Assembly: GCA_031002005.1 (NCBI GenBank)
Contig: CM061919.1
Location: 20,097,687-20,161,686, forward strand
Direction: 5' to 3'
Length of the DNA: 64,000 nucleotides
DNA from: Vandiemenella viatica
Taxonomy: Eukaryota > Arthropoda > Insecta > Orthoptera > Morabidae
A program made the position numbers and the translations under genes. The notes beneath the pieces are model-generated. The model was given only the letters and a program-made list of their open reading frames with translations, was not told the DNA's origin and ran no database searches. Numbering within the stretch: position 1 is the first letter of the stretch; the number at the start of each line of letters is the position of its first letter. Of the stretch, positions 19,248 through 44,860 are shown piece by piece.

Positions 19248-19378
19248 TCGTAAGCAAGCGCTTTAACCACCTTTTTTTCGTAAGCAAGCGCTTTAACCAC
19301 TTTTTTTTAGCCCATAACCTAAACATTTGTAAGCAAGCGCTTTACCTAATTTTTTTTCATTTTTTTGTGGTAAGCACT
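19248..19378 (-). repeat. Serial A-tract plus target-motif units at the non-LTR 3' end
   Basis: On the minus strand the 3' end of the retrotransposon alternates A-runs with copies of the tRNA-like target motif GTGGTTAAAGCGCTTGC. The genomic target is at 19248-19270, a second copy at about 19279-19300, a diverged third at 19327-19347 and a stub at 19367-19378. This fits repeated target-primed insertions of almost nothing but tail at the same site, each duplicating the target. Confidence 0.75.
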
Positions 19379-19392
19379 TTTTTTTTACATTG

Positions 19393-22300
19393 TTATTTTA
19401 ATGGTAACACTGCGTTTAAAATTTTTTGGAAGAGGTCCTTGTAGTTTTTAATGTTTTGCAGTTTGTGATGGTTCTCTGTTATGTTATACCAAAAATCTTC
19501 TATTGTTGGATTTTTTTCTGTTATTGCGTATTTGAAGTATTGGCCTAGTATCCATATGGTGCTATTTCTTTTTGTTTCCGGGTATGGCCAGCACTGTGGT
19601 TTCAGTAAGTATTCTAGGTCTATTGTGTTGGCGCTGGTTCTGTTTATGACTGCGAGTTTTTCTTTTACCCATTGCCATATGTTTTTTCTCTTGCCGCATG
19701 TCAGCCGGTGCTGGATTGTGTCGATTAGTTTGCATCTTGGATATAATGGTGTTGGGCTTAAGTGGATTTTGTTTAGTTTTTCTCCTGTTTTAAGTGTTCC
19801 AGTTACCACTTGGTACCAGAGTGACCTGGTTGTTAGGTCTAGAGTTCTATTATGTACGTTAGACCAAATTTTACTCCATTCTAACCTCGGGAACTTGGAT
19901 TCTATTCCGCTTGGCGTCCGGTTGTTCGTTAAGGCTTTGTAGATGTCCTTCGTATTTCCTTTGATTTCGTGAATGTAGCTCATTTCAATGTAATATGTCC
20001 GTACTTGTTGCAGATCTTTGCTGATATTGCTGACATCGACAGGCGCCATAGGACAGGGTGGCTTTAATACGGAGAAAAGGATCTGCTTGAGGCTGCTGTC
20101 GCTATCTTCTAATATTGCCTTGGTACTGGCTAAGAAGAGGGCCGTGCATTTTTTATGGACGTCCACTACTCACAGTCCTCCTTTGTTACAAGGCATAGGG
20201 CAGGTGCTGAAGGGAACTTTAAAAACGTTCCCTCTCCAAATATACCAGCATATGGCTGCTTCTATTTTACGCGCTATGTTCTGCGGAATAGGTATTATAC
20301 TTGCTGTGTAGTAAATCTTACTTAGCATGTAGGTGTTAACTAGTCTCACTTTCTGTAATAGGTTAAGGGGTCTTGTTGTATTTTCTTGTAGCAAAGCTCT
20401 GACTACATTTAGGTTAGTTCTCCAGTTAATTGCTACCATTCTGTTCGGGTTGGTTGTTAAAGTGATTCCAAGAACCTTGCATTGGGTCGTTGTTTGTATC
20501 CATTCATTGTCGATTTTGGCCTTCTTCTTGCCTAACAGAAGTATTTTTGATTTGTTTTGGTTTATTTGGGCTCCACTTGCTGCGGAAAATTGTTGTATTA
20601 TATTGCGGGCTTCTGTTATTTCTTCCTTATTATTAATAATTATGTTTATGTCGTCGGCATAGGCTTGAACTACGAATTTGTGGCCGAAGATGGTCAAGCC
20701 TGGCAATCTGTTGTGGAGCTGCCGGAGTAGTGGTTCCATGGAAATACAGAAAAGGGTCATGGATAGTGGACACCCCTGCATGATACCTTTTCCTATTGGT
20801 ACTGCTTTCGTGATTTGTCCGTTTATTTGAATACTGGACCTCGTGTTGCTCGTACATTTTCTTATTGTAGCTACGAGGGCATCGCTGAATCCCATGTGGC
20901 GTAGTGTTGCAAGCAGGAATTCATGGTTTACCCTATCGTATGCTTTATCAAAGTCGAGGGTCGCGAGAGCTGTTTTAGTGTTGCTAGCCCATGTTAGATG
21001 GATCAGTTCTCTGTATTCAGCCGCTGCCTCCGTTATCTTTTTGCCTTGTATACCACTTTTTGGTGGGGTCCTAGAATTTGGTGTAGTATGGGTTTTATCC
21101 TGGCATTGATGGTGCGAGTAAGTATTTTAAAGTCTGCGTTCAGAAGTGTGAGTGGGCGAATGTTGGCGAAGCAAGTGCTAGGTTTCCCTTTCTTGGGGAT
21201 CGTAATTACAATTCCTTCAGTGAATTCTGCTGGTAGATGGTAAAGCTGTTGGATCTCGTTGTATATTCGTGTTAGCTGTGTTCCTAGTATGTCCCAATAC
21301 TGGTTATAAAATTCTATTGGCAGGCCGTCCTTTCCGGGGGATTTATTCCTGGGTGAATTTGTTGCTGCCTCTGTTATTTCTTCATGCGTAAAGACACTTC
21401 CAAGATTGATGTTGTCTTCTTCGGTTATTGCTTTATTGACAAAGCGCAATGCGTTTTGCATCTGTGTCGTGTCCTGTGCTTCGGGTGCATATAGTTGTCT
21501 GTAAGACTCTCTGATATAATTCATTATTTCTTGTTGTTCTGTTAGGGTGCGTCCGTCATCGTCTTTAATTTGGGTGTAAAGTTTCTGTTTCCCTCGCTTG
21601 GCTTCTCTGATCATGTGGTACAGTGCAGTTTCTTCTTCTTGTATCGCAGAGGTAATTCTGGACCTTACTTGGCGGCCTTTTATTTCTTCCTGGGTTGCTT
21701 TTACGATTTTTAACTTAATCTTCTTGATCGCAATATTATTATCCGTTGTTTGGGTTGTTTTTTTTTGATAAAGCTCTCGTAGACACAAGAAGTAGAACTC
21801 TTTGGTTGTTCTGCTCCACATGGATTTTTCTTTGGCGTATATTATGGCAGTTGTTCTTAGCCTTGGCTTGGCATGTCTTGTCCACCAATCGATAAGAGTA
21901 GGGTACTTAGCTTGCTGATTGATGCATTGGTTCCAAGCGACTTTTATGCGTTCACTTAATTCTTCCTCCTTGAGAAGCTGCGTGTTTAGTTTCCAAGGAT
22001 TTTTCGCTCATGTAATTTGTTGCTTATCTAATTTAATTTGGATGTGATAAGCGCTGTGGTCACTGAAGGCAAGTGGCCACATCTCGCAGCTGCTTAATTG
22101 GTCCTTTAGTTCTTCAGCCACGTACACTCTGTCGATTCTGCTTGCTGAGCTGCTATTTATGTAGGTGTAGGCAATTCTATTGGGGTTTAGAACGTTCCAT
22201 GTATCCCTTAGTGATAGGTTGGTAGTTAAAAGTTGTAGCTCCTTACAAAAGTTGTAATTTGGGTTTTGGTCCTCTTGCTGCAGTACACAGTTAAAATCAC

Positions 22301-22695
22301 CCCCTATTATTATTGGTCTCTTCTTGCCCCCTATTAGGTTTGTTACATCACTGGAGAAGAAGGTGGCCCTATCTGCTCTTCCTTGTGATCCAGTCGGAAG
22401 CATATATATTGATCACGGTGACACCTTGCACTATTGCCGAGATTCCTCTTCCACTCATTAGGACCGCTTGTTCGGTGTATCGTATTCCTTCTTTAATGAG
22501 GATGGCGGTACCAGCTTCATTCCCTATGTTGATCAGGGATTCGTAGCCGTGTATTGCACCTATCTTTCGGGTATTGACTTCTTGTATTAGTGCCATATCT
22601 ATGTCAGCAGCATACAGGTAATCTCTTAAGCATTTTAGCTTGACATCTGAGGTAATTCTAGCTGCGTTGACTGTCGCTATTTTGTAAGTCTGCAT
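19393..22695 (-). pseudogene. Non-LTR element 1 ORF2: endonuclease and reverse transcriptase
   Basis: Starts MQTYKIATVNAARITSD. The APE-type endonuclease shows the catalytic glutamate in ALIQEVN, IIIGGDFNCVL, SSASRIDRVYV and the terminal FSDHSAYHI, so all conserved residues remain. The RT shows VITIPKKGKPS, IRPLTLLNADFKIL, MQGCPLSMTLF and QAYADDINII, with YADD at 20650-20661. The C-terminal part has a CxxC...H...C finger (YPRCKLIDTIQHRLTCG with C replaced by Y/P context) followed by a conserved tail. Frameshifts or stops near 22400, 22008-21821, 21030-20895 and 20168 inactivate it. Clade placement in L1/Tx1 is from motif style only. Confidence 0.85.
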
Positions 22696-22999
22696 TCGTA
22701 ACCGAAGAGTTCAAACTCCCTGATTAACACTTCTTGCATGAGTGCGGCGTCTATTTGATTTTGTATAAGAAATTGTTTCAAGACATAAAACTTTTTTTTA
22801 GCTGTTATGCAATTGGTGTTAATCGTTGTTAGTGTCAAGACTTGATTCGTTGTGTTGGTGCTTGGCCTTGGTTGTCCGCCAATCCATTAGTGTCCGACAG
22901 CAGCTGTTCCATACGTCAAGTCTGTTCTATGCCGTTAAGGTTCCTATTTACGGTCTTCAGGTGTTTGTTTCCTTGTGAGTTCGTCGCTGCGATTTGTAT

Positions 23000-24288
23000 T
23001 CAGGAAGTCTGCCTGACATCCTCTATGTCTTCGTTCTGATCGTTGTCTGCCCAACTAATGGGCATACCTGGTGTCTCCGTACCTGTTTCTCGGTGTCTGA
23101 CTGAGTTTGTATTTAACTCTGCATTAAATGTTGGCAGGCTCTTCCCGATTTGTTGCTTTTTGAGCTTTTTTCCAGTGCCTTTAGCATCGTCTGTATTTTC
23201 TCTTTCAGTAGATTTTTCCCTAGTTTGTTTACTTTTCGTCTCCGGTTGTTTTCTTGCACGACGTTTCTTACTGGGTTTGGGCTTCGCTGGTTTCGTCCAC
23301 TCGGTTTCTTCTGCTGTCGACGGGACTTCAGTTGTCAAGTTCGTTTCGGCCTTCTCGTCGGCCGACTCCATGTTATCGTCGGTTTCTGCCGTGTTTTTCA
23401 ACGATTCAACTTTTCTCTTCTGTTTTGTCTCTTCCATGTTTGTTATTGACTTTTCTATTAAGTCTCCTTCTTGTTTTCTTGGTAAGTTATTCGCTTTTGT
23501 GTTCATGGTTTAGGATACCTCGTCGCACCTTGATTCTTCGGTGTTCCTTATGTCGTCATTTTGTTGTTCCCTCGTTTCTCTTCTTGTTTTCGTCTCCGTA
23601 TTCCCACTGTCCGTTATCGTCAGTGATGGAAACTGCTGCTGATCTTCCAGTGGCATTTCTTCATCTTGTTTCGGTGTTCCTGTTCGTCTAAGGTAGGTTA
23701 GCGATAGTACTGTCGGTTGTATGCGGGGGCAGTTTGCTCTAATATGTTGTATTGAATTGCATAGAGCGCAAGTTCGGGGCTGGCCGTCGTATACAACCAG
23801 TGCTCTGAAACCACACACATTGATGTATGATGGTATGTGCTTCGTTATCTCCATTTTTACTAGCCGCTCTCCATTTGCTTTCTTAAACCTGATATTGCCT
23901 CCCCATTTGTCTTCTACGATCTCTGCCACGTTGCCGAACGGTTTTATTGCTTGTAGAATGGCTTCATTAGATATTTCAAAGGGCAGATTTAGCACTCTTA
24001 TCTGTCTTTTTCCCATTCCTGCGTTCGTTACTTGAACATTGCTTACGTTTCCATCGGCGTGATGGAATTTCAGGTTCCCGGTATTTGATTCAATTACACT
24101 AACACAATGTTCCTCGCTTATCATTTTAACAAAAACACAGTTCTGGAAAGAGTCTAGTTGTATTCCCAGTATTTCTTCGTCAATTAACATTACTTTATCA
24201 AACAACCACTCATGTATTTCATAGGCCGATGGTCTTATGTATGCTAGAATTTCACTGTGTTTTTTCTTGTTATGGCGGTGGAAGCCAT
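23000..24288 (-). pseudogene. Non-LTR element 1 ORF1: nucleic-acid-binding protein
   Basis: The likely start is the ATG at 24288 (MASTAITRKNTVKF), with a frameshift shortly after; the main frame runs from about 24250. It holds a region found in ORF1 of the second element (EIHEWLFDKVML), an RRM-like stretch (IRVLNLPFEISNEAILQA) and a zinc knuckle, CALCNSIQHIRANC. A TAA at 23510 lies in frame before a lysine/glutamate-rich tail that ends at 23000. ORF1 proteins bind the element RNA. The gap to ORF2 is about 300 bases. Confidence 0.75.
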
Positions 24289-24708
24289 CTCTTACCTTTT
24301 ACTGCAAAATTCGCCTAAATGCGGCTGCGTTGATGGGTTTTCAATAGCTCACACACAAACTTCACACTAACACTGTTATAATAGCTGCGGCGTTAACGGA
24401 AGTTGCTGACAGCACGTCCGCGTCTGACCGCCGCTGAGCGCGGAATGGAACCAGAGCTGGCAGTCCAGGACACGGAAACACGGTAAGTTGACATCCACAT
24501 CCAACGTGTCTGTCTATCTCCGTATTTCGAAGTTATGAGACAACATGTGTTATTTATACAGATAATTTTTCAACCAAATGTAGACAGTATTTTTCTCCTT
24601 ATTTCAAAGGATAAGTGTGCAAAGTTTCATCGAGATCGGATGAAAACTGTGGATTTGTATGAAGAACAAACAAAATAACAAACATACATTCATCTTTATA
24701 TATAAAGA

Positions 24709-25049
24709 TTTGGAGACCATTTGCTAGCAATTACTTCTTTCATCTTCCGAAACAATGATCAAGGTATCCAGGACGCCAATGCTCTATGTCATGGACCAAA
24801 ATCGTTCATAATTTGATTGAGGAATATTTTTGTCAATTCCATCTAATGATTAAGTCATCTATACCTCCAAACATGAATCCGACTGAACACACCAAGGACG
24901 TACTTGAAAGACAGTTTGTGAACAACGCCATATACCGGCAACACTTTCGCAATTACAGTCTTCATGGGATTTCCGTGTGACTTGTTTAGTCAATCCCATG
25001 TCAGTTTGTTGCACTTTACCGGGCAAAATGGCGTGCCACGCGATATTAG
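24709..25049 (+). pseudogene. Tc1-like transposase relic, 3' piece
   Basis: Continues from 9898 across the Helitron. It keeps a degraded second catalytic block (QDANALCHG, where Tc1 has QDNAPCHxA), NLIEEYFCQFHLM and PPNMNPTEHTKDVLERQFVN, the third catalytic block with D changed to N. The tail SIPCQFVALYRAKWRATRY with its stop at 25047-25049 matches the usual C-terminus. Frames change twice. It is an old, dead copy that served as target for two later insertions. Confidence 0.7.
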
Positions 25050-25758
25050 GCCGTATCCCTCTATTTTTGGCTCTTCCGTGTAAGCGCAATGTGTGTTTTT
25101 TATTCAAATTTCAGCAGCGCAGCTGATCAGAGGAGCTTTTGCGATATGCAGGAAGTTCGCCGACAATGAATTCCGATATATATGGAACTACACGATCTGA
25201 ACGTCCCGTTTCTGACTTAATTCAGTCGGTGGTGTATCTACGAATTTTTGGAGCTGGGAAAAAATCTCGAGGTTACTGCCCCTTCCAAAATGAATTTACC
25301 GCCCGAGGTAGTTGTTCGATTTTGCCTCTGCACTGATGGTTGTCACTCGAAACAGTATAAGTAGAAAAAAGGTAGCCGTCACACGAATTTGCCATTTACC
25401 ACCACTTGCAAAATGATTTTTGTCGCCTCCTGAAGCTGCTGCCAGGAGCAAGCGCCCCAGTTTGACCGCCCTGGATCGAACGCAATGTTTTCAGTGAAGC
25501 ATAACTTATACAGCGAATTCACAGGAAACGCCCAGATCGTTGACTAGTCTATTCCAAGTCTCTGTTAGCCAATATGTAGAAGACAAATACTACCGAGATG
25601 TTCCAGGAACGTTCATGCTCACTGACTGGAGTTTACTAAGGCCTTAAACCGTAAAAATTGATTTTTATAGTATTGGCGCCAAAACCTGTAGTAGTTAGGG
25701 AGCAATGATTTTTGCCCAAATAAATCTGAAAATTGCCCAATAATATAACAAGTAGATA
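25050..25758. other. Unassigned sequence
   Basis: No gene recognised. Short stretches such as TTGTCGCCTCCTGAAGCTGC (about 25424) recall interior parts of the miniature hAT-like element at 6127, but the match is too short to call. Confidence 0.3.
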
Positions 25759-26619
25759 CACTGAAGAGCCAAAGAAACTGGTACACCTGCCTAATATCAT
25801 GTAGGGCCCCCACGAGCACACAGAAGTGCCGCAACACGACATGGCATGGACTCGACTATTGTCTGAAGTAGTGCTGGAGGGAACTGACACCATGCATCCT
25901 GCACGGCTGCTCTTAAATCCGTAAGAGTACGAGGGGGTGGAGATCTCTTGTGAACGGCACGTTGCAAGGCATCCCAGATATGTTCAATAATGTTCATTTC
26001 TGGGGAGTTTGGTAGCCAGCGGAGGTGTTTAAGAAGAGTGTTCCTGGAGCCACTCTGTAGCAATTCTGGACGTGTTTCCTATCATCAACATTCCACTGTC
26101 GGTGTTGACGGGCCCATGCTTTTTGTCGTGCACTCAGCAAGGGTACACGCGTGGGCCTTCGAATCAGCAAGCCCATATCGATTATGTTTCGTTAAATGGT
26201 TTGCACGCTGACACTTGTTGATGGCCCAGCATTGAAATCCGCAGCAATTTGCGGAAGGTTGAACGATTCTCTTCAGTCGTCGTTGGTCCCATTGTTGCAG
26301 GATCTTTTTTTCCGGCCACAGCGATGTTGGAGTTTTGATTCCTGATATTCACGGTGCACTCGTGAAATGTTCGTACGGGAAAATTCCCACCTCATCGCTA
26401 CCTCGGAGATGCTATGTCCCATCTCTCGTGCGCCGATTATAACACCACGTTTAAACTCACTTAAATCGTGATAACCTGCCATTGTAGCAGCAGTAACCGA
26501 TCTAACGCCTCGCCAGACACCTGTTGCCTTATATAGGCGTTGCCGACTGCAGCGCCGTACTCTGAGTGTTTACATATCTCTGTGTTTGCATGCTTGTAAC
26601 AATTTTTTTGGAGCTTCAG
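25759..26619 (-). mobile_element. Tc1-like transposon with internal deletion
   Basis: The left end CACTGAAGAGCCAAAGAAAC follows a TA and the right end GGAGCTTCAGT precedes TA; the two ends are imperfect inverted repeats. Between them is a transposase that has lost its centre. Length is 0.86 kb against about 1.3-1.6 kb for complete Tc1 elements. Confidence 0.8.
25797..26482 (-). pseudogene. Tc1-like transposase, centre deleted
   Basis: The N-terminus MAGYHDLSEFKRGVIIGARE starts at 26482 and gives two helix-turn-helix motifs typical of Tc1. A frameshift near 26280 leads into ARQKAWARQHRQWNVDD. The sequence then jumps to the segment before NSPEMNIIEHIWDALQRAV, the third catalytic block, and ends in SMPCRVAALLCARGGPT. 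The first and second aspartates and about 110 residues are missing. It cannot catalyse transposition. Confidence 0.85.
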
Positions 26620-26621
26620 TA

Positions 26622-27370
26622 CAAGTTGAAATATATAGAGCTCAGTTTTGAAGGAGTGGTCGTACTTTGCATGTGATCTTAGAGAGCCAGTATCGCTGTT
26701 AGCATCTTCCAGTTCGGAAATTCGAAGCCTGAAGTTTTTTAATGACTAGCCGCGCTTACGTAGAAAATATCTCTCCTTTACTTCCATTACGATGATTTTT
26801 GCTAACAGTCTTAGTCTGGATTATCGATTTCTGTATTTTATTCTTGCTTCTCGTGCTGTTCACGATTAAGTCAGATATCCCTTCGTCGTCCACGATGACT
26901 TTTTCTTCTCATATCAAACTACACATTCTTTATTCACTGATTTTTTGTGTCATTACATCCTCAATAACGAATATCTTTCTCTTTCATCTCCGACGCTTCG
27001 AACAGTACGTTAATACGTATAAAGTTCTGTAAATAATTCATTTTCACTTCTTTGGATCCTCCTGGCTATATACCGTCCACTGACACAATTAAGGAATTAG
27101 TTTTTAACACTCTCTCGTTTAATTTCCTGCTGTTTCTTCCATCATGTTTTCCAAATTCCTTAGTAATATAATGTTTGGATACAACATAGGTTTGGTCCTA
27201 TATTTCTTCCAAGACAATTTCATTTTTTTTTTTAAAGTGAAACTTTTATTCTATCGGCTCAAATTTTTCCGTTCATCTATCGCATGTCGCATTACAGCCG
27301 GCCAGGCGCATGGGCGCAGGTATGGTGGCGTGACCTAGTGAGGAGGACTCATTTCCGTTAACATTCACAA
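26622..27370. other. Unassigned AT-rich sequence
   Basis: No reading frame or repeat recognised, apart from the 31 bp word at about 27274-27304 that recurs in direct orientation at 28622-28652 on the other side of the foldback element. Confidence 0.35.
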
Positions 27371-28504
27371 GGGGAGGTTTTCAGGGTGGAACTCGCAATC
27401 GTAGAACGAATAAGTCTGGGAAATAGTGCGTCACATCTGGTTTCTCGCCCTAAGGTAGTTCAGCCTGGTGGGCCTTCGTTTAAGAGAAATCGGAGGTTAA
27501 AAAGTTCTTAAATTGTATGTAAATGAGCTATACTTGTACGGAAAAGCGTTAGTTTATAATGTCTATTTAGCCGTGCTCGTTGAGGCGGTGTGATCGGATG
27601 CGATGGGTCAAAGGTACGATTCCCCCACCGCCGCAATTTCTTTTTTTTTCTGTTTGTATTTTTTTTTATTGCTTTTCTATGTTGAAGCATTAAAAATTGT
27701 TTTGAACCAAATTCTACAATTTTTTTTATTTTCCATTGACAAATACGCAAATATTAGTATGGTACCACCGAAATGTTTGAATTTATGTCAGCCATGTGAT
27801 GTGTATTTCTATCATCAGGTAAAAATACTAATAAAAAAGCTCCAAAATGCACCGAAACTGTTGTAAGATAACCGTGCAATATCTTCTCGTGAAGATGCTG
27901 TTAAGATATATTCTCTTATTCACCAGATTTTGCGAGCGCCTTTATTTTATGACATGATAAAATATTCCTGGTACAGTTCAAAATTAACGAATAAAAGGCT
28001 GTAATTTACAAATGTTAACGACACCTTCTTTCCTAAATCAATAATAAATACTGTATGTAACTGTCGAAACATATCCTTCATAAAATGTTCCTGGTGTGTA
28101 CGTAATTTTTGTTCCAAATGTTTTTATGATTTATACCATCCTAATATTTGCGTATTTGTCAAAGGAAAATAAAAATTGTGTAGATTTTGTTTCAAAACAA
28201 ATTTTAATGATACAAGATGGAATGGCAATAAAAAAATAGAAAAAAATTTCGCGGTTTGTGGGATCGAACTTTGAACTTGATTACATCGCCTTAACAACCA
28301 TGGCTAAATAGTAATTACAAACGAACGCTCTACTGCAAAAATATAGCTCATTTAAATACAATTTAAGCACTTTTTTTAATCGCTGGTTTCTCTTAAACGT
28401 TGCCCACCAGGCTGAACTGCTTTAGGGCGAGAAACCAGCGGTGACGTACTATTTCCCAGACTTGTTCGTTCTACGATTGCGATTTCCACACTGAAAACCT
28501 CTTC
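27371..28504. mobile_element. Foldback element with long inverted arms
   Basis: The arms are roughly 27371-27755 and 28145-28504 in inverted orientation, with blocks such as CGCAATCGTAGAACGAA and AGTCTGGGAAATAG conserved. The outer end is GAGGTTTTCAG. No coding potential is visible. Each arm contains a tRNA-like stretch: A-box-like TTAGCCATGGTTGTTAAGGC and B-box-like AGTTCGATCCCA, best read on the minus strand of the right arm. No clear target duplication was found. A miniature DNA transposon or a pair of inverted SINE-like copies would both fit. Confidence 0.65.
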
Positions 28505-28914
28505 TAGTCAGTTGAGATCTGTCTGGCGTCGACTAAAGTTGAACTGAAGCAAGGTAATCGGCAACTGAGCGGGTGCTTTCTAATCTTCACTTCCGAAAAC
28601 AGGAAGCGTTATATCTTCGTCCATCTATCGCATGTCGCATTACAGCCGGCCACGGAGTGGGGATAAAGTGAAAGGCGCTAGGCAGATCAACCAAGGCCAA
28701 TATGGCGGCGCCCATAGCTCGCATCAGACGACCGGTTAGCATTTACATTATCACTTATTCGTGCGATTGTATTTATTATGTATTTCGTAATCTAATACAT
28801 AGATTGAAATTATTATTTATAGTAGCATATCTTGTTAACTGTTGATTTCCCATTATCTTTCCCATTTTCCAATTATTAAGTTAAGATTAAGAACGCAATT
28901 TTAATACCCTAAAT
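28505..28914. other. Unassigned sequence
   Basis: No gene recognised. It includes the second copy of the 31 bp direct repeat (28622-28652) and ATGGCGGCGCCC at about 28700. Confidence 0.3.
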
Positions 28915-29983
28915 CAGCGGTTCCCAACCTTTATTGGTACCCGACCCACTTTTAAGCCAAAAAATTTTCGCGACCCACCTAATATGTGAGTCTATCTAAT
29001 ATCAGAATGGGAACTGTTATATGACCTAGATACGCTATCGTCTATCCTATCCTACGAAAAGGCAAATATTCGTACAATGGATATACTGTCTACAAACACA
29101 AGAATTGATAATACATAAAACAACAAACATATAATAGACCGAGAGGCGGCTGCACACTGCACAGACTATAATCTCATCCAAGTCACTGGAAACCACCTTC
29201 AGACTCGATTTTAGTGGTTGATTGGTAGGTTTATCATTGTGTTTTGCTACACCCAAATGTATGAAAATATGGAGGACCGGTAGCAGGAAAACACAAGGGT
29301 AAACTTACCAGTCAACCACTAAAATGGGATTTGTAGTAGTTTTCCACCAAGATATGACTTGGCACATCAGTGGCATTTTAATGTTCAAATAGAGGTTTAA
29401 CTAATCCTAGGATTTCAGCCTTCAAATTGATGAGGTGATGCTTTGTGCAGCTGCCTCCCGCTTTATTACAAAAATAATGAAAAATGCGTTTAAAATATTA
29501 TAAAAGCAAAACTTTACAATGAGTGAGATTTCTGGCACTGGTGTTTACTGATGAGGGCATCGATATCAAGGTTAACACTGGTTAATTTTAACGTGAAGAC
29601 ACTTTCGTCACATAGTTTATTTCTATATTTGTTTTCAAAAACAATAAAGTAGAAAAAGTTGGTTCACACAAGTATATCATGTTGAATGGAATCAAGAACT
29701 TCACAGCTAATTTAGAGATTTCTGGAAACTCTGCTTGTACATTCATCCAGAAGGAAATTAAGGATTTTACCATGAACATTGTCTTTAAAGTAGAATTGCA
29801 AGATAGTTCTATTAGCGAGTCTTCTTCAGCTGTTAAGAGTTTTAAGCCTTTCAAATGTTCCTCTTCAAAAATAGATAAACTAAAAGATAATTTTTGTGGC
29901 AAAAACATAGATTGTTCCGCGACCCACCAAAACACACGCCGCGATCCACCAGTGGGTCGCGACCCATAGGTTGGGAACCGCTG
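28915..29983 (-). mobile_element. hAT transposon, internally deleted (third hAT family)
   Basis: Ends CAGCGGTTCCCAACCT and AGGTTGGGAACCGCTG are inverted repeats with a perfect 8 bp duplication, CCCTAAAT, at 28907-28914 and 29984-29991. At 1.07 kb only the transposase C-terminus is left. The sequence differs from the CAGGGGTC family of copies A and B. Confidence 0.95.
29588..29935 (-). pseudogene. hAT transposase C-terminal fragment
   Basis: About 115 residues with FWMNVQAEFPEISKLAVKFL and IPFNMIYLCEPTFSTLLFLK, the hAT C-terminal dimerisation domain as seen in ZBED/FAM200-like proteins. The zinc finger and catalytic core are deleted. No start codon of its own is implied. Confidence 0.75.
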
Positions 29984-30228
29984 CCCTAAATCGAATAATT
30001 TTCCTAAACTTTTCAGTTAAATACTTTTAAAAAATTTCACTTGCTTCGTGGTTTCATAAAACCACCTTTTTTTTATTATTTCGCAGAGAATGGTATTCTG
30101 AATTATTTCAATATTTCCCGACGGTTACTCTTGAACTTCCTTATTAAAATTTCCCAATATCATCATGTTAGTATAAACAAATATAACTCTCATCCTTAAT
30201 ACCCTGATCTTACTTTCCATCTCTTATT

Positions 30229-30280: not shown

Positions 30281-30284
<4 letters not shown>

Positions 30285-32947: not shown

Positions 32948-32967
32948 GTTTGTTTCTAACAACAATT

Positions 32968-34047: not shown

Positions 34048-34069
34048 CAGAACGAAGTAAATAAATCAG

Positions 34070-34181
34070 AGATGTTATGAACGCTATGAAAGTACATCAA
34101 GTAATGAGAAAACTCTGAGAAATGAGCGACGATGTGAACGCAATGGAAGTACATCAAGTAATGAGAAAACTCTGAGAAATG
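34070..34181. repeat. 57 bp tandem duplication in the mariner 5' region
   Basis: AGTACATCAAGTAATGAGAA and the following 15 bases occur at 34091 and again at 34148, with diverged GAACGC sequence between. It lies between the transposase start and the right TIR, so it may affect the promoter. Confidence 0.9.
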
Positions 34182-34679
34182 CAGCGCCATCTATCGACCA
34201 AAATGACTCGAATTGGGGGTCAAATAGGGGTAGTTTTTTCCGGGGAATCAGAATCTGCAATAAAAAATGGGGGTTCCTATTTAAGTTTTTTTTCTCCCCC
34301 TTCCCCCACCCCTAGGGGGTGGGGGTGGGGAGTCAAATTTGGTATCATCGGATGTCCCCCGTCGAGACGAACAATTTTTATTACCCACTTTTTTTGATCG
34401 GATTTGTAGTTTTCGAGATATTTAGTTGTCTCAAGATAAAAAACTCACTTGGTATATTTGGTTCATTAAGATCCTCCTGTATGTAATTCTGCAAGTAATC
34501 CGTCCATGAAACTACTGTAATCATATCCGTACGCGCAAGATAATATTATGTACCGAGCTGTAAGGAAACTTGTAACCACTGTCGATTTATTAGGTTTCCG
34601 AGATCGTCTGGTTTACCATCTCATAAATTGCTTTTAAAGAAAAATGCTATTATTATGTTTTCTCTTATGGCTTCACGAC

Positions 34680-34830
34680 TCGTCGACGTCGAGGTCACTA
34701 GAGGCAGCAAAGGACTGGGTACAACGAAAGGGAAGGAATTCTGCCATGGCCTTTTGAAGGAAGCATCTCGGCATTCGCCTGGAGTGATTTGGTTAAACCA
34801 TGGAAAACCCAAATCTGAACGCCCAGACGT
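34680..34830 (-). mobile_element. Truncated tRNA-derived SINE
   Basis: Minus-strand copy of the 63660 family, from GGGCGTTCAGATTTGGGTTT through TTCCATGGTTTAACCAAATC to GCCATGGCAGAATTCCTTCC. The tRNA-like head is missing at its 5' end, where it abuts Helitron helicase sequence. Confidence 0.75.
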
Positions 34831-35466
34831 TACTATGTTATGTACAAAGCTTAGTGCTAATCAGGGATTAATTAATGGTGCAAGACTTGTGGTAATTCTC
34901 TTAGGAGAGTACACCATCAGTGCTAAATTAATTCACTCAGATAAAACTATGCTCTGATCAACCGTGCCTTTCCAAATCGTAAGAAAACAATTCCCAATAG
35001 AAGTAACCTTCGTTATGGACATTAATAAAACACAAGGTCAGAGGCTTCAAAAGGCAAGATTGTATTTATCAGAGCGTGTTTTTTTCATATGGACACCTGT
35101 GCGTGGCTTTTTCATGAGTTTGTAGATCCATTAATGTTTAGTTTTGTGTTAAAGACACATACTGTCAAAAATTCAACGATGATCACATTTTAACTGCTAA
35201 TATTGTTTTCAAAGAAGTTTTGTAAAGTAAAAAAAAATTGACAAAGGTTATCTGAAAAACAATTTTTTTAATATATATTTTTTTAAATGTTTTACTATTG
35301 AACATGTAGTAATTAATAACAACGGTTTTTTACAATGAAAGTGATATTTATTACCGCACTTCAAAATAAAATACCTTTCATTAATAAATAATTGCATTTA
35401 TTTATTTGCATATTATTATATTACCATTTGGTGACTGACCACGATCTGTTCGCATGGATCAGCTAG
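34831..35466 (+). pseudogene. Autonomous Helitron remnant: Pif1-type helicase tail and 3' end
   Basis: Translation gives LSANQGLINGARLVV, then after one TGA VPFQIVRKQFPIEVTFVMDI and NKTQGQRLQKARLYLSE. This is the C-terminal end of the Helitron helicase (usual motif FPIxxxFAMTINKxQGQ). The coding part ends at about 35124. Downstream an AT-rich tail leads to GCATGGATCAGCTAG at 35466 followed by T, a Helitron 3' terminus. The Rep domain and most of the helicase are missing. An intact relative of such an element would supply the proteins the small Helitrons lack. Confidence 0.75.
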
Positions 35467-35689
35467 TGTATGAAAGTTATTCTTTTAAAGATATGAGTTA
35501 CTTGATGTAAGCAAAGAGAACTAACATTAGTCGGCTTACTGGTACCTGAAAAATTTACAGACGTTTCCGAAATACCAAATACAAGAATTGCTGACCTTTT
35601 TTTTACGAAATTTCATTAAAATCGTTAGAGCAGTTTCCGAGATCCCAAATATATATATATACAAGAATTGCTTGTTTAAAGATATAAGA

Positions 35690-36010
35690 TAAATACGAAT
35701 GTAACTCTGTCTTTCTGTTTGTTACGTTTTCACTCCAAAACGGTTAAAACGATTTTGAATAAATTTTGACAAGGAAATACATTTGTCATTACGAAGGGCG
35801 TAGGATCCCATTTTCTGTATAAATGATACGTTTTGTCATAGAATTTTGAAAACGGTGACAGATAGCGTAGTTCTACGCCGCAGAGCAAGCTGGTGGTTCC
35901 GTAGTTAAAACGCTTGCTATTTAAAAGTTCTGCTTCCGATCCCGGTAGGGTCAGGAATTTTAAAAGTTGTTTTTGATCGTCTGAGCCCTTCCGTCGCACG
36001 GATTCCACGA
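35690..36010 (+). mobile_element. Second Helitron-like small repeat with tRNA-like module
   Basis: The arrangement parallels the main small Helitron family: a leader (CTCTGTCTTTCTGTTTGTTA), an AAACGGTTAAAACGATTTTG block, then a tRNA-like part with A-box-like GGTTCCGTAGTTAAAACGC and B-box-like CTTCCGATCCCGGTAGGG. The sequence is otherwise different. The ends are not clear. Confidence 0.45.
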
Positions 36011-36189
36011 TAAACTGTAGGTCCAGCAATGGCATTGGTGGAATTTAGCATAAATCGATACTCTGTCATGTAAGGGGGCGAACTCCCCTTCGAAATCTAT
36101 CGGCCAACAATGCCATATGGATTTACATTTTTGTGTCAAATTGGTTGCACAGACTTTCCTTCCTTTGTAATCAGTTTTTGTATGATCTA

Positions 36190-36578
36190 CAATAATAACA
36201 TTATAAATGGGAAAATAACTCTGTTTCTCTGTGTGTCTGGTGCGTTTTGACGACTAAACGGCTGTACCGTTATTGATGAAATTCGACAAGAAAACATTTT
36301 GTATCATTACGAAGGAAATACTTTTTTCGGGATAGATAATCTTACAATATCATGATTTTTCGATAACTAACCCCCCCCCTTTTTCTGTTTTTCATTATAT
36401 TGCAAACTGATTATCTTCATGAGACAGGTTCGATAGTAGAATGGTATAGTGAAGGCGTCCTCCTCATATTATCCAGACTCCGTGGTTATTTATTTATTTA
36501 TTTTTTTTACTCTGTTTACGTCCAGTTCTAACGATAATATTTTAAGTCCACGCATACGAAGTCACGTGAAACAGCTAA
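36190..36578 (+). mobile_element. Helitron 3' fragment, related small family
   Basis: It carries blocks of the small Helitron family (GTTTTGACGACTAAACGGCT, GAGACAGGTTCGATAGTAGA) and ends CGCATACGAAGTCACGTGAA followed by ACAGCTAA, a CTRR-type end before T. It lacks the 5' half and the tRNA-like module. Confidence 0.6.
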
Positions 36579-36637
36579 TACCTTTATATTCTGTGATCAT
36601 GTTACAGACAGTTACTTATTGGCATTTGCCACAAATA

Positions 36638-36766
36638 CTTTGTGTTGTATAACACCAAGTCTGCGTTCACGTCTAACATCTTAGATCGGAAGATAATGTG
36701 TGAAGAGATCATATCAGGTTTAACGAGGTTGCCATATAACTCTACCACCAAAATCATAGTTTTTCA
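36638..36766. repeat. About 125 bp repeat, copy 1
   Basis: CTTTGTGTTGTATAACACCA to ACTCTACCACCAAAATCATA, repeated in the same orientation at 37669-37793 with about 90% identity by eye. No ends typical of a known class are seen. Confidence 0.85.
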
Positions 36767-37261
36767 AAAAATTTCATAAATAGTGTTTCTTCCTATTACC
36801 ATTTCTCGAATAAATGTTCTTCTCTGTTTGATCGTTGGGCGAATGTTCACGTAACCATTGTAAAGCATACGTACATAGATATATAACTAATTTAAAATTA
36901 TTTTCCTACTGAACAATAACGACAAAAAAAACTGTTATAAGCAGCACGAGCTTACCAAAAATGTCTATTTGATAGTTAAAAGGAACTACAATCACTCAGC
37001 TATTTTATCATTATTATTAATTTTTAATTGCGATGAAGCTAACGCTCCGGTGGCAATTCCCCTAATCATCTAATTACCACTGTTATGTATAATTGTTTTA
37101 TAATTGGAATGATAAATTAATGCCTCATTTACTTTTTCGATTTACAAATTTGAATTTTAAATTTCTCAAGAGGTTTTGGTAAATTATTTTTTACTTTACT
37201 TGGTTATTTGTTCCAGTCCGTGACACCCTTAATTTTATTTTTAACTGCTTAACGTTTCTCA
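36767..37261. other. Unassigned AT-rich sequence
   Basis: No reading frame or recognised repeat. Confidence 0.35.
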
Positions 37262-37470
37262 ACAGCGAGGTCTTTAGAGACGGGAAAGTATGGTGGTCAA
37301 GGAAAGGGAAGGAATTCGGCCATGGCCTTTTGAATGAAGCATCCCGTCATTTGCCTGGGGTGATTTGGGAAACCATGGAAAAACCAAATCTGGATGCCCG
37401 GACAGGGATTCGAGCCGCCATCCTCCCGAACGCGAGACCAAATCGCTAACCGTTACACCACCACTCTAGG
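37262..37470 (-). mobile_element. tRNA-derived SINE with complete head
   Basis: Minus strand: A-box region GTGGTGTAACGGTTAGCGA, B-box GGCTCGAATCCCTGTCC, then the TTCCATGGTTTCCCAAATC and GGCCATGGCCGAATTCCTTC blocks. It adjoins the 3' end of the CR1/jockey-like RT at 37480. Confidence 0.85.
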
Positions 37471-37479
37471 TCTTAAAAG

Positions 37480-38810
37480 AAAATTTTCCCACTCCCTTAT
37501 GCATGAAATCGAGCACAAGGTTGTGGTCATGGTCGTCTTTCGCCTTCCGTGCACCATCCCAATTCTTTGACCAATATCTCTCCAAAGCCCATCATCAACA
37601 TATGCCCTGTACATTCGCAGCACTCTCTTCACCCTCATTCTTTCTTCCAATTAGTTCCATACATACCTTGTGTTGTATAACACCAAGTTTGCGGTCACGT
37701 CTAACATCTTAGTTCGGACGATAATGTTTGAAGAGATCATATCAGGTTTAACGAGATTGCCATATAACTCTACCATAAATATCATATTACTTACTGAATG
37801 GGTCCTGTGATAATTTCAACAAACAAATCTAGCTGCTCTTCTTTGCACACCTTCCAACTCCTGTATTTGATAACCAAAACGTGGGTCCCAAACTACACCA
37901 CTATATTCAACCAATGGTCTGACCAAAGTTTTGTAACCCAACTCCCTAACTTCTCTGGTACATCCTCTCATCACCGGCTCCAGTAAATGAAGGATTTTAT
38001 AACCTTTTCCTACCACCCGCCCATTATGCTCTGCCCAACTGAGTTTGTTATCGAACGTTATGCCAAGATATTTACACTTCAAGCTTTTAAAAAGCAATTC
38101 TGACCCCAACCTATAATCATAATTAACCTTTACTTTTTTATTTGTGAGCCTAATAAGCTGACTCTTCTTGGCATTTATCTTCATTCCATGATGACCTACC
38201 CATTTAGATATTCTAGCCACGTTACCGTGCAACTGTTCACAGTCTTCTGGTTTCTTTGATCTTTCTGTATACCATTATGTCCTCTGCAAACAACCTAAAT
38301 TCTGACTGTAAACCATCAACACAATCATTGATTGGAATAATCAACAGCAATGGTCCCAATACACTACCCTGTGGCAGTACCATATTCACTTCCACCTCTT
38401 TTGATAATGTGTTTCATACTCTAACACTTCGCTTTCTGGCTTTTGAGAATTCATCTACCCAGCAAGTAACTTTCTCATCCAATCCAATAGTTCTCAGTTT
38501 ATCACTCTGTCAAATTCCTTAGGAAGATCTTGTGCCACCCTATCAACTTGGCCTCCCTTGTCCAATTCATCTGAAATATCTTGCGTATAGCCCTGTTGCC
38601 TAAAGTCATGTTGTCGATATGAAAACCAGTTTCTTTCCTCACAGACATTTCTGATATAGTTGCATATCAATCTCTCCATCATTTTGTCTATCACTGATGT
38701 CAAACCAATTGGCATGCAATTTTCGACCCTATTTGTAACCCCTCCTTAATGAACCTGTAGAACTATCGCTCTTTTCCAGTCATCCGGTAAGAAGCAAGAC
38801 TCCAAACTCA
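37480..38810 (-). pseudogene. CR1/jockey-like reverse transcriptase, C-terminal part
   Basis: Minus strand from 38810: SLESCFLPDDWKRAIVLQVH, then PIGLTSVIDKMMERLI, a region with KEFDRVIN, and from 38232 a well preserved stretch SKWVGHHGMKINAKKSQLIR, KYLGITFDNKLSW and QIQELEGVQRRAARFVC. The YADD core region (about 38240-38500) is frameshifted. A 125 bp repeat interrupts it at 37669-37793 before RMRVKRVLRMYRAYVDD and the tail. At 38810 it is cut by the Helitron composite and continues at 46852. The frame is preserved across the empty site. Confidence 0.85.
37669..37793. repeat. About 125 bp repeat, copy 2, inside RT
   Basis: Same sequence as 36638-36766. It interrupts the C-terminal part of the RT, so it behaves as an inserted unit, not as part of a segmental duplication. 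Confidence 0.85.
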
Positions 38811-39222
38811 TCTTTATATATAAAGATGAATGTATGTTTGTTTGTTTGTTTGTTAGTTTGTTTGTTCTTTATACAAATCCACAGTTTTCATCCGATCTCG
38901 ATGAAACTTTGCACACTTATCCTTTGAAACAAGGAGAAAAATACTGTCTACATTTGGTTGAAAAATTATCTGTATAAATAACACATTTTGTCTCATAACT
39001 TCGAAATACGGCGATAGACAGACACGTTGGATATGGACGTCTCCATACCGTGTTTCCGTGTAGTGAACTGCCAGCTCAGTGGCCGCAGTCGAGTCGTAGC
39101 CGTCGAGCAGTGTGGACGTGTTTTCCGTCTGACTGTGGAATAGCAGTGACACGACATTGCGGCAGTGCCAGCGCAGCTGTCAACCGCCTTAATATATTAC
39201 TGTTCTGATTTTGACGATTATT

Positions 39223-40565
39223 ATGGAAGGAGTGACCAGAAAATCAACGCTTAGTTTTAACTTCCCATATTGTCATTCCAGACCGAAGATCTACGAAATT
39301 GACGAATGGTTATTTGAGAAAATAGGCCTTCGCGAAGACGACGTCAGTGGACTGCAATATGACTTTATTGCAAACATCGTTTACGTAAAACTGAAAGATG
39401 ACAAAATGTGTTCACAGATCTTGGAGCAGACCGGCGGACATGCGGACTTTCCCCTCTCCTCTGGAGAAATAAGCAAAGTGACAATTAATATTTACGGGTG
39501 TCGGGCTGAGAACAGTGAAGATGTATAACATACCATTCGAATTGCCACTTAACGAGATACAGAGGGCGTTAGCGCCATATGGCAAAGAGTATGCCATCAA
39601 TGTGGAGAAATGGAGCGGAAATATGCGGTTTACAGTAGATAACGGTGTAAAAATCGTGAGAATAGACCTCAAGAAACATATTCCGTCATACCAAACAATT
39701 TTTGGATTCAAGACGCTAGTCATGTATGACGGACAGCCAAGAACGTGCGCCATATGCAACTTGCCAAACCATCTGAGAGCAGAATGACCCCGAGGAAAAC
39801 CAACAAATCCTGCCCCGAATACAATCAAAGAGAAACAAGCCACATACGCAGGGATTACGTCGGGAGACACACCGACGCTGCAAAGCGCATGGAAAACATA
39901 CGAGCAACGGCAACACCGGCCAACAACACTCAAAGCAGCAGCAATCTTGAGGCAGAAGAAAGAGGCACCAAACTGATCGCCGTGGACATACACAACCCAG
40001 ATCATAGAGATAACGCAATGCAGGTGGATGCTGAAGAAGATCTAGAAACCACAAAGAACACCGACACCATCAGTGAAACAAAGCCGGCAAGCCAGCTAGA
40101 ACGAGGAAACAATCAGGGACAACAGGCCACTGATAGCGTGATGGCCGCGAACGTAAACACAAACAAAACACCATGGAGGAAAGCAGACGGCCGGAGGCAG
40201 ACTAATTCCAACTGAATCCAAGGCAATCGCAAACAACAAACGAGAAGGCAAAGGAACCACCAAAAGACAAACCGCTAGAAAAGGAGAGCATGCAAGAAGA
40301 GGGAGCCAAAGAGAAAAGGAGAGAGGCACGAAAAACAGCAGAAGCAACCGCCAAACAAATGAAATTGAAACTACTGCAGATAAAACAGAAATCCCACACG
40401 GAAAACGGACAAGAAGAACACAGAGAAAAGAAACAACGGACCCGCAGCAGGGACAGCAGTTCAGAGAGGAACGACGAGAAAGAAGAAGTAATCCAAGCAG
40501 ATAGAAACCAAGGTCATTGGGCCGATGTGATGGAAACACAAAATATAGCACAGATCGACTTCTGA
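39223..40565 (+). pseudogene. Non-LTR element 2 ORF1
   Basis: MEGVTRKSTLSFNFPYCHSR starts at 39223, with IYEIDEWLFEKIGL matching EIHEWLFDKVML of element 1. After a frameshift near 39515 comes MYNIPFELPLNEIQRALAPY, then a zinc knuckle, CAICNLPNHLRAEC, at about 39748-39787. A long charged tail follows in two further frames up to 40565. It is dead as it stands but keeps the same domain order as ORF1 of element 1. Confidence 0.72.
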
Positions 40566-40573
40566 CTCACCCC

Positions 40574-43500
40574 ATGCCGGCAAACCAAACATACTGCGTT
40601 GCCACACTAAATGTGTGCGGCATACAAAATGACACTAAAATCCGATGTTTAAAAGAATATCTGCACGCTGCGTCGGTAGACATAGCCTTATTACAAGAGG
40701 TTACAGCAGGAATGACAGATGACTTTTACGGATACACAGCAATTAAAAACTTCGGCGACGGCCCGAATCTCGGCACAGCTATTCTGACAAAAGAAGGCAT
40801 AATGCCGAAAGATGTAGAGATCCTACCGAGCGGCAGTGGAATCGCGTGCACAATAGCGGACATGCGCGTTGTGAACATATACGCGCCGTCAGGGAGCCAA
40901 AATAAGGAGAAAAGAAAACTTTTTTACACAGCTAACATTGTTCCCCTGATAAGAGGTAATTATGCAAAGTTCCTGTTAGCAGGAGATTTCAACTGCGTCA
41001 TATCTCCTAACGACCAAACCCCAAATTTCAACAAAAGCATGGAGCTCGAATATCTTGTAGAAAACCTCAACTTAGCAGACACATGGAACCTACTACATGG
41101 AGAGGAACGCGGATACACTTTCGTCACCAACACGTCAGCAAGCCGACTAGATCGAATGTACAGTTTCGCAAACCCTGTCAGCTATGGTGACATCTTCAGA
41201 GATTTGGCCAACCAACTTTACAGATCACTGCGCATACCATTGCAAAGTTCTAAGCACACCCCAAGAAACCTAGAGAGGGAAAGGCACATGGAATCTTAAC
41301 ACTTCAATCCTGGAATACAGTGACCTACACACAGAGTTTTCAGAAATGTGGAACCAATGCAAAAAACGAAACACCAGACACACCAGTGAGATGGACTGGT
41401 GGCTGCATCAGATGAAGCCCAAAATTAGGAAAAGCTTAATGAACTACTCAAGACAGAAGTCAGCATGGCAAAACCACACAAAAGAATATCTATTCATAGC
41501 CCTCAGAGAACTGTACCAAGACCAAGAAAATATATCAGCCAACTTATGGAAAATTAAACAAATCAAAGCAAGAATTACAAAAATAACGAGACAACAGATG
41601 TACGGTTCCCAAATACGAGCGAGGACAGATACCAGCCTGACCGATGAAGAAACAACTACACACCACCTTATGAATGAAAGACGTAACATCAAGAACAAAC
41701 TAATAACGGAACTACACGCCGGAGACCGAAGAATCACAAGGCAACAAGAAATAGCAAAAACCCTTCAAGATTACTTCTCACAACTTTACACAGAAGAACC
41801 TACACAAGAACCGGAAGAAGAACAGATTTTAAATAACGTCAACCAACAGATCACAGCACTAGAAAACGATCAACTACTAGAAGCCAATAACAGAACACGA
41901 AGTACTAGCCACCATAAAACGCAGCCCGCGGAAAAAAATCACCCGGTCCTGACGGTCTTCCGACGGAAGTCTATCTAACATTCTGGAAGCATCTCAAAAA
42001 ATCCTTGACGCAAATATACAACGACATTTTACAAGGACAAATTTTATTTCCAGAATTCCTAGAGGGCATCATGGTACTTATACCCAAAAACGGGAAGAGC
42101 CGTAACATAGAGAACTACAGACCGATAACACTGCTTAACTCGGACTACAAAATATTCAGCCGGATAATAGCATACAGACTCCGAGACACAATGTCGAAGA
42201 CGATCGGCAATCACCAGACATGCATCGGAAACGGAGGATCCGTAGTACAAACAGTTGCGGACATACGAGATATCATCACGCTGTCAACACTGGTGAAAAC
42301 TAAAACGGCTATCTTATCCCTAGACTTCCATAAAGCCTTCGACCGAGTAAACCATAACTACCTGGCCAAAGTAATGAGGAAAATGGGTTACTCCACCCAA
42401 ATAGTAAAGGTAATACAATTATTAACAATAGATGCAACCTCGAAAATCTGAGTCAACGGATAGATAAGTCAAACCATAAAAATAGGCAGGTTGGTGAGGC
42501 AAGGCTGCCCCCTATCCATGCACCTCTTCGCAATAGCAATCGAACCTTTTCTGACAGCACTGAACACCAGAATAACAGGTGTCACTGTCCGAGGTCAAAA
42601 GATAGCAGTACGCTCATACGCGGATGACATAAATCTCATCATCACCGGGACAAGAGACATCGAAGAAATCAAGGCGCTAACGACAACATACTCTAATGCA
42701 TCAAACGCAAAGCTAAACATAAAAAAATCCAAAATCATGCTCTTGGGCGAAGATCGTGGAATAGACACCGGAGGCTGGATAGAGAAAACAGAGACCTTAA
42801 AGATTCTAGGCATACACTTCACCAAACAACTGCCAAGAACAATAGCACTCAATTGGCGAAACCAACTTGCGAGCACACGGGTATAGAAACCTAGACCCGA
42901 TTCGAAAGATACATTTTATAAACTGCGCAGCTTTATCTAAAGTATGGTACACAGCTCACATCCTCCCCATCCCACGGGAGATCGCGAAGAAGATGGATTC
43001 CGCGATGGGTTGGTTTATACAACGAGGAGAAATATTTAAGATAAAATACAACACACTGAAGGCACCCGTTGAGAAGGGAGGATTAAAACTGATTGACGTG
43101 TACACCAAATGCACAGCCATACTTATGAAAAACATACTTAAAATGTGGAAAAGCAACACACCTGGGCTCTGCGGACACATAATGGCCGAGACAGAACCTA
43201 GCAGCATAGACGCGCCCATTGATATAAATCATCTGAATTCAGGATTAATTCATATCCGTCAGTTCTACATCAATTACAGTTACATACATAAAGAGATTAA
43301 AAACAACAACCTGTCAGCCAAAACATTTTATGACCTCATGGCAGCTAATAAATACTTCAACAACATAGAAAACCTGCATAAAAGCATCGACTGGAAAACG
43401 CTATAGGAAAAGATACATAATTCATCGCTGCGCTCTAATGTTCGGTCAACATGGTACAGAGTGGTAAACAGAGCGATAGCCACAAATACCAAGCTCCATA

Positions 43501-43877
43501 AAATCCACCTCTGTGCGTCACCGCTGTGTACAAGCTGCGGCCTCCAAGACACCATTGAACATAGACTACTGTGCTGCGAGGATCCGAAGATATGGAATTG
43601 GACGAAGGCAAAGCTAGCCTTGATTAACAGAACAGTGCCAAGAACATACACACCTGAAGACATCCTGCGTCCAGATCAAAGACAATACCCGAAAAATAAA
43701 AGAAATGCCCATGTCTGGCTAATTGCCAATTACACACACTATTCCATCGCAAACCAAGGAAGGGCAAACATAGAGGACTATTGGCATTACCTAACGGTGG
43801 AACACCACAAATTAAAGAAACACAAGAGCTACAAAGATGACTTCGCCAGATTCTTACTCGCAGTGATGCCATATTAA
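40574..43877 (+). pseudogene. Non-LTR element 2 ORF2: endonuclease and reverse transcriptase
   Basis: MPANQTYCVATLNVCGIQND starts at 40574. The APE endonuclease has ALLQEVT, VVNIYAPSGS, LLAGDFNCVI and NTSASRLDRMYS; its final SDH block is not seen because of a frameshift after 41200. The RT has MVLIPKNGKSRNIENYRPIT, LSLDFHKAFDRVNH, RQGCPLSMHLFAIAIEPFLT and the catalytic YADD at 42617-42628. The C-terminal finger CTSCGLQDTIEHRLLCC is intact at about 43523-43574. Two TGA codons near 42450 and frameshifts near 41300, 41960, 42870 and 43405 inactivate it. Confidence 0.87.
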
Positions 43878-43916
43878 AATAAAAAAAGTAAAATAAAAAA
43901 ATTAACAAATAAAAAC

Positions 43917-43975
43917 AATGGATAGCATTCTGGACATTGAATCCAGCGGTCCGAGTTCATATCTCGGTGGAAACT
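43917..43975 (+). pseudogene. tRNA-Gln(UUG)-like sequence, 5'-truncated
   Basis: AATGGATAGCATTCTGGACA and the next 39 bases follow a tRNA-Gln: an anticodon stem CTGGA/TCCAG with loop CATTGAA (anticodon TTG, but A in place of the universal T33), and a T arm CCGAG/CTCGG around TTCATAT. The acceptor 5' strand and part of the D arm are missing, and the last bases are AAACT in place of AACCT. It lies between A-rich segments of the retrotransposon 3' region, so it was captured, not expressed as a gene. Confidence 0.8.
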
Positions 43976-44860
43976 ATATTTTTAGAACAGTATTCTTTTT
44001 CTTTTAATTTTTTATTAAGGGGTGGGACTCATATGCATCTAAAGAAAAATTATTTTTTTTTTCAAATGTAATTGACGGGTGTAAAAAATAAATAAATAAA
44101 AAAATATATATAAAACAGTGGGAGCGAGGGGGAAAAAAAAAGTGCCTAAAGCTCTTGCTTACGAACGTCGTGGTCTCCGGTTCAAATCTCCGTGGATCGT
44201 AAGAGTCACGGTTGGGCCCTCGGTTATTCGGATTGAATTTTAAACTGTAGATTTCACAAAGGTAGGGGTGCAATCTGAGGCAATTCGTAGGTAGTCTTGC
44301 AATACATTAGATGTACACTTTTTTACGTTATATTGATCCATCAGGGGTGATTCGTAGTCAGTGTGTGTGTAATCTGCAGTAGGAATACATAAGTCTCTGT
44401 CTTATGTTACGTTTTGACAATTAAATGCCTATACCGATATTGACGGAATTTGACGAGAAAATGTGTAGGGAGGGCACTGGACTTTCTTTGTTCATCATAC
44501 AAATCAACAGTTTTCATCCTATCTCGATGAAACTTTGCACACTTATCCATTGAAACAAGGAGATAAATACTGTCTACACTTGGTTGCAAAATTATCTGTA
44601 TAAATAATACATGTTGTCTCATAACTGAAAAATTTCTCGTCGAATAGAAGTTGTCCGATTCAAATAGTGCAATTAGGACCAGAGATATTCGTAATTAAAA
44701 TAAAAGAAATGATTCTGAAATTTTCGTAACTTGAATTGTGTCAATACTCTGCAGTATGCCACGATAATCAGCAATACTCCGAGCGCCCCAGCGGACACGT
44801 CTGTACTCCGGCCAAGCAGAGGTCAGCCCATGTAGCTCTCTAGCCACTTCGCCAGGCAGT

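Follow-up and report, generated by a model that had tools for sequence, protein, structure and literature searches.

The non-long-terminal-repeat (non-LTR) retrotransposons Mutsu, Dewa and Tx1L belong to the Tx1 clade, and Tx1L inserts into a transposon, Tx1D, which would make it the nearest precedent with a transposon host for the elements described here; R1Bm targets the 28S ribosomal DNA. The present elements, E1 and E2, are found in a stretch of 64,000 nucleotides from the 3.72 Gb genome of the orthopteran Vandiemenella viatica (CM061919.1, 20,097,687–20,161,686; hereafter the window), each inside the tRNA-like segment of a Helitron copy. They share one insertion position in the D-arm of this segment, and a third diverged element, E3, lies at the same position on another contig. 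Judging from the sequences, it is quite probable that the three belong to a single clade of L1-like elements with an APE-type endonuclease, specific for the D-arm and its A-box both in genes and in copies carried by transposons.

Target-specific elements of the APE type have been reported from the Tx1 and R1 clades (PMC4640811), with targets in U2 (Keno), 5S (Mutsu) and the tRNA-Leu spacer (Dewa; PMC3706591); these and the other cited papers are used in excerpt, and statements about them extend to those excerpts. The Tx1-clade elements resemble E1–E3 in their APE domain and in a fixed position within a repeated sequence, but a target in the tRNA D-arm, where E1–E3 lie, is not described in the excerpts of PMC4640811 and PMC3706591. 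Non-LTR elements that target other transposable elements are mentioned in PMC8869645. Among the NeSL-related elements, NeSL-1_TV (tRNA-Pro), LIN15_SM (tRNA-Arg) and LIN25_SM (tRNA-Glu) are specific for tRNA genes (PMC4640811), and would share with E1–E3 a site specificity at tRNA or tRNA-like sequence. However, target-specific elements beyond the Tx1 and R1 clades have a restriction-like endonuclease according to the same source, whereas E1 and E2 match APE in Pfam rather than this enzyme of the NeSL and R2 types. In some Perkinsus families of Dada, TAGCTC, a part of the A-box, is the putative target duplication within tRNA genes (PMC3706591); unlike E1–E3, Dada elements are DNA transposons with a DDE transposase and no reverse transcription. 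The TRE5 and TRE3 elements of Dictyostelium are likewise L1-type elements tied to genes transcribed by RNA polymerase III (pol III), but their insertions lie away from the tRNA gene (PMC5911963), whereas E1, E2 and E3 are all inside the D-arm. For SART1Bm, the 3' end of the RNA has been proposed to anneal to the target, and R1Bm is cited as needing target sequence downstream, which favours accurate priming (PMC7265360); this offers an analogy to the mechanism proposed below. Both differ from E1–E3 in belonging to the R1 clade, and SART1Bm also in its target, a telomeric repeat. None of the titles and abstract openings listed in searches of the open-licence literature describes an APE clade with specificity for the D-arm in Helitrons and SINEs (short interspersed nuclear elements).

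Three diverged elements at one D-arm position

The outer flanks of E1 and E2 are the halves of one repeat, which is intact in three window copies (207..633 and 18602..18965, minus strand; 45000..45480, plus strand). E1 (19271..24454, minus strand) adjoins the 5' half at 24455..24710 (minus strand) and the 3' half at 19056..19270 (minus strand); read leftwards, CTGCCAGCT ends at 24455 and GTGGTTAAAGCG, the beginning of the 3' half, starts at 19270. The terminal bases of E1, 24451–24454, may be target sequence. E2 (39083..44141, plus strand) is preceded by the 5' half at 38810..39082 (plus strand), which ends in CAGTGG and where CTGCCAGCTCAGTGG reaches its last base at 39082, and is followed by the 3' half at 44142..44328 (plus strand), which begins with GTGCCTAAAGC; its flanks overlap in GTGG/GTGC. 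In all three elements, the insertion separates the A-box sequence ...AGCTSAGTGG from TTAARGC in the D-arm, and all have the same orientation as the tRNA-like segment; the hosts are two Helitron copies and one SINE head. The 3' ends, which are runs of A, abut (GA)GTGGTTAA or GTGCCTAA.

Where the proteins of E1 and E2 match, the pieces share only 28–47% identity, as compared to 90.6% and 75.2% for their 5' and 3' Helitron flanks, respectively. Neither insertion is thus a copy of the other, and they are independent; a single insertion duplicated with its flanks was rejected on the same numbers. The initial annotation had described two diverged elements at one D-arm position of a Helitron module, in the same orientation, with the empty site preserved in uninterrupted copies and with proteins too different for duplication. 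These observations are confirmed, and strengthened by E3; the exact 3' border of E2 had to be shifted, to 44141/44142.

E3 emerged from a survey of exact GAGTGGTTAARGCG sites, of which the genome holds 561. We read 98 of them (L001–L008, L031–L070 and L072–L121), drawn from 100 listed, the remaining two being those of the window. The upstream half of the A-box is clearly missing at four sites (scores 2–3 of 9): in L036 and L088 an A-rich stretch replaces it, and in L033 and L034 other sequence without an A-run. Extension of L036 to 7 kb (L071) identified it as the 3' junction of E3, with ORF1 in a frame of 508 codons and pieces of ORF2 of 591, 141 and 394 codons (ORF, open reading frame). The 5' flank ends TTCTGGTAGCTCAGTGG and the 3' flank begins GAGTGGTTAAGGCG, with AGTGG at both sides. 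The 3' flank matches L088 in two segments, of 31 bp at 97% and 110 bp at 89%. SINE heads such as those in L044 (29 bp, 86%) and L087 (27 bp, 85%) resemble the 5' flank, whereas the Helitron query matches the E3 locus over only 21 bp. From these matches, the host of E3 reads as a tRNA-headed SINE, in which the D-arm position of E1 and E2 is occupied within a different repeat. We rejected a reading of the 3' flank as a tail piece at an unrelated place, since L088 holds the 31 bp and 110 bp segments in one repeat; they are approximately 110 bp farther apart there than beside E3. L088 itself, at 974–1000, shows the SINE-head start GTCTGGCAG, 27 bases ending CAAAATAAAA, and then GAGTGGTTAAGG. This could be a very short insertion at the D-arm site, perhaps a heavily truncated copy, without coding sequence.

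By score, 48 of the 98 sites are Helitron-like, including L088, for which the repeat comparison favours a SINE; among the last ten sites, some appear Helitron-like by eye yet are under the cut-off. ARAGORN assigned two of the 98 to tRNA genes, both uninterrupted tRNA-Ser(aga) genes (L079 and L080, some 210 kb apart on C5), and none of these exact sites to tRNA-Leu. Many of the remaining sites resemble tRNA-like SINE heads by eye, and a tRNA-headed SINE-like repeat, TGGTGGCTGAGTGGTTAAGGCGTCTGAC..., recurs in non-Helitron sites (L038, L040, L042–L046 and others). No close copies of E1 or E2 were seen in L001–L010.

Coding regions, relatives and hosts

E1 and E2 contain ORF1, an ORF2 with APE and reverse transcriptase (RT) domains, and an A-rich tail, which is long in E2; the frames are broken in both, at several places in E1. 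ORF1 of E1 (23510..24298, minus strand) has a CCHC-like knuckle, CALCNSIQHIRANC, with a Pfam zinc-knuckle match of 18.2 bits, under the cut-off of 27. The ORF2 pieces of E1 (19393..22710, minus strand) cover APE (22008–22710), a connecting region (21033–22007), RT (20170–21126) and a C-terminal part (19393–20169), and those of E2 (40505..43877, plus strand) cover APE (40505–41299), RT (41918–42886) and a C-terminal part (43407–43877). Short B-box-like words were noticed by eye within approximately 20 bases of the 5' ends of E1, E2 and E3.

Pfam identified Exo_endo_phos and RVT_1 in the pieces of both E1 and E2. In a search of solved structures, the RT piece of E1 had human L1 ORF2 as its best match (1.1e-23), followed at a distance by 8gh6, which is named only reverse transcriptase-like (5e-14), and by the best R2-named chain (1.8e-12); in this search the RT is thus nearer to L1 than to R2. 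The 591-residue piece of E3 matches residues 4–584 of human L1 ORF2 (E 2e-34). With APE and RT in ORF2, in frames that are broken in E1 and E2, the three elements fall within the L1/Tx1 group.

E3 is 30–48% identical to the protein pieces of E1 and E2, and 37–38% identical to proteins P0022 and P0023. In a tree of 62 rows, built with relatives from a protein collection and without reference Tx1 sequences, E1, E2, E3, P0022 and P0023 form a clade with support 100/99, and the neighbouring group includes the mosquito proteins P0039 and P0046. The branches of E1, E2 and E3 are long, 0.7–0.8 changes per site. For a wider comparison, the window was joined with 200 kb of adjoining DNA to a region of 264 kb, in which the ORF1, APE and C-terminal pieces were matched by E1 and E2 only. 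L030 (368–754) carries an RT piece with 36% identity to E2 across 129 residues and nothing that matches ORF1, APE or the C-terminal part.

The host repeat of E1 and E2 is a Helitron as judged by its ends. In L002, L003, L007 and L008 these ends are TCTTTATATATA...GGGCTAG, preceded by A and followed by T (TCTCTATATATA in L002), which agrees with the Helitron rules, namely TC at the 5' end, CTRR at the 3' end and insertion between A and T. By the pol III promoter motifs, CCAGCTGAGTGG and GGTTCAAATC in the module at 45000..45480 are A-box-like and B-box-like, respectively. The four copies are 900 bp or slightly longer and look non-autonomous. A separate comparison of four copies of the module, those that host E1 and E2 included, showed identities of 90–97% for the 5' half and 71–97% for the 3' half. 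Long copies are confined to the window within the 264 kb, and outside it four partial copies were found (approximately 100 bp, 73–80%).

ARAGORN called no tRNA in the window (bacterial code; default settings), and with relaxed settings gave doubtful tRNA folds in four of seven stretches, which were not used. Rfam had no match in the E1 region (18400–25000), a single chance-level snoRNA in the E2 region (38000–47000) and a single chance-level CRISPR repeat in one Helitron module. A further tRNA-like stretch, TTTAGCTCAGCGATACCGCGC...GGGTTCGAATC, is located between Helitron pieces at 44866–44935, where ARAGORN makes no call. Three module pieces lie head to tail (45000–45480, 45696–45939 and 46133–46439), suggesting a tandem Helitron array.

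Target-like pieces in the 3' tails

The 3' tail of E1 (19271..19392, minus strand) consists of A-runs alternating with target-like pieces. At 19279–19300, all 22 of 22 bases equal the start of the younger module, as compared to a maximum of 17 in 2000 shuffles of the tail. The adjacent piece of 41 bases (19309–19349) best matches Helitron modules with a longer loop: it is 83% identical to L095 over 36 bases, with a local score of 24 versus 18 for four younger-type modules. The piece at 19367–19377 has a GTG start, and no match to it was found.

The tail of E2 contains a tRNA-Gln(TTG)-like fragment (43916..43974, plus strand) that runs from the D-loop toward the acceptor, with an A-rich run before it and TATATTTTT, a T-run, after it. 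Of its 59 bases, 52 match a tRNA-Gln sequence. In a search of 96 bases against all Rfam families, positions 43917–43967 matched RF00005 with 16.5 bits (E 0.25). The fragment reads AATGGATAGC, homologous to GTGGTTAAAGC, and has the same start position in the D-arm; its first base is uncertain because it comes directly after the A-rich run. Between two further A-rich runs, CAGTGGGAGCGAGGGGG (44116..44132, plus strand; piece CAGTGGGAGCG...) is possibly another target remnant, and has matches of eight bases only among the sampled sites.

We infer that the tail pieces derive from earlier targets that read-through transcripts have brought along. The initial annotation had proposed that the lineage recognizes the D-arm segment GAGTGGTTAARGCG, also typical of tRNA genes of class II, with the Helitron module as a decoy. 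The D-arm part is supported by E3, which occupies this position in the head of a SINE. The target so given is too narrow, because the E2 tail holds a fragment like tRNA-Gln, a class I tRNA, with a homologous start. That reading was thus right in kind and is supported in part.

Explanations of the shared position and a proposed mechanism

A chance coincidence, or the duplication of a single ancient insertion along with its flank, can hardly be the explanation. Several module copies do lie close together in the window, but the protein divergence of E1 and E2 far exceeds that of their Helitron flanks, and E3 is a third diverged element at the same site on another contig. For two independent insertions into seven module copies, each with a site of 5 bp, in 264 kb, the chance is (35/264,000)^2, approximately 2e-8, a value that excludes orientation and is a biased test, since the window was chosen because of the coincidence. 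A preference for the Helitron itself or for its chromatin, with the tRNA likeness being incidental, is very unlikely. The location of E1 and E2 in Helitrons and the large Helitron-like share of the sampled sites would suit such targeting; however, the tRNA-Gln-like piece in the E2 tail starts at the homologous position, and the location of E3 in a SINE head led us to reject targeting of Helitrons only.

That the pol III machinery, TFIIIC or TFIIIB at the promoter, guides insertion as in the Dictyostelium TREs, in place of endonuclease recognition, is unlikely. The site is within an A-box-like stretch, and the ORF1 protein of TRE5-A reportedly interacts with TFIIIB proteins (PMC5911963, in excerpt); yet the three hosts agree on the position to a few bases, whereas TRE insertions are spread at distances of 40–150 bp. 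The two modes could also act together. It is also quite unlikely that the elements are ordinary L1-like ones whose preference for a motif is loose and whose copies lie mostly elsewhere. All three insertions came to our attention via the site, and the 264 kb include several unassigned RT places, but the site common to the three diverged members spans a few bases, and the tails of E1 and E2 hold earlier target-like pieces with a common start point.

Several observations weigh against a D-arm-specific clade or against the reading of its tails. The insertions examined are three, all noticed through their site, so that off-target copies may have escaped notice, and none of the three is in a live tRNA gene. 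At E1 there is no clean target duplication, the 5' flank reading CTGCCAGCTCTGG as compared to CTGCCAGCTGAGTGG at the empty site. E1, E2 and E3 alone group in only 12% of bootstrap trees, with their inner order open, so that the specificity may have arisen more than once. In the 264 kb, approximately ten further RT places, that in L030 among them, match only RT or connecting pieces, at 20–38% identity. As for the tails, the younger-type module L108 scores 20 on the 41-base piece of E1, versus the best score of 24, the RF00005 match in E2 is under the gathering score of 29, and the pieces could alternatively stem from template switching or from repeated priming at a single site.

For D-arm-specific elements, the sequences suggest the following mechanism. 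The endonuclease would likely nick the pol III A-box and thereby start target-primed reverse transcription, with the nick in the bottom strand immediately 5' of GTGG, where the poly(A) tail would prime, and a top-strand cut after GTGG that would give a duplication of 4–5 bp. Some transcripts would continue beyond the element into its tRNA-like target and be polyadenylated there, so that each jump could add a short stretch of the previous target to the 3' tail. The tail of E1 would then log an older Helitron module, a younger module and the present host, and that of E2 a tRNA-Gln gene, perhaps another target, and the Helitron. Tail logs ordered in this way, in a deep APE clade that acts on A-boxes of any origin and has spread from tRNA genes to Helitrons and SINEs, are a fuller version of the proposal to which we give even chances. 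Since insertion parts the A-box from the B-box, pol III can probably no longer use the host segment. The tRNA-like segments on transposons would make up an abundant and harmless share of the target set.

The repeats known to house target-specific retrotransposons are those of rRNA, snRNA or tRNA, microsatellites and telomeres. By reading the A-box, a clade could exploit a larger pool, the tRNA-like segments on other transposons, and would thereby spare working genes from insertions. If the tail logs are true, changes of target could be read from single copies, and shifts in specificity would be directly testable. A natural A-box cutter would also be of interest to builders of site-specific insertion tools.

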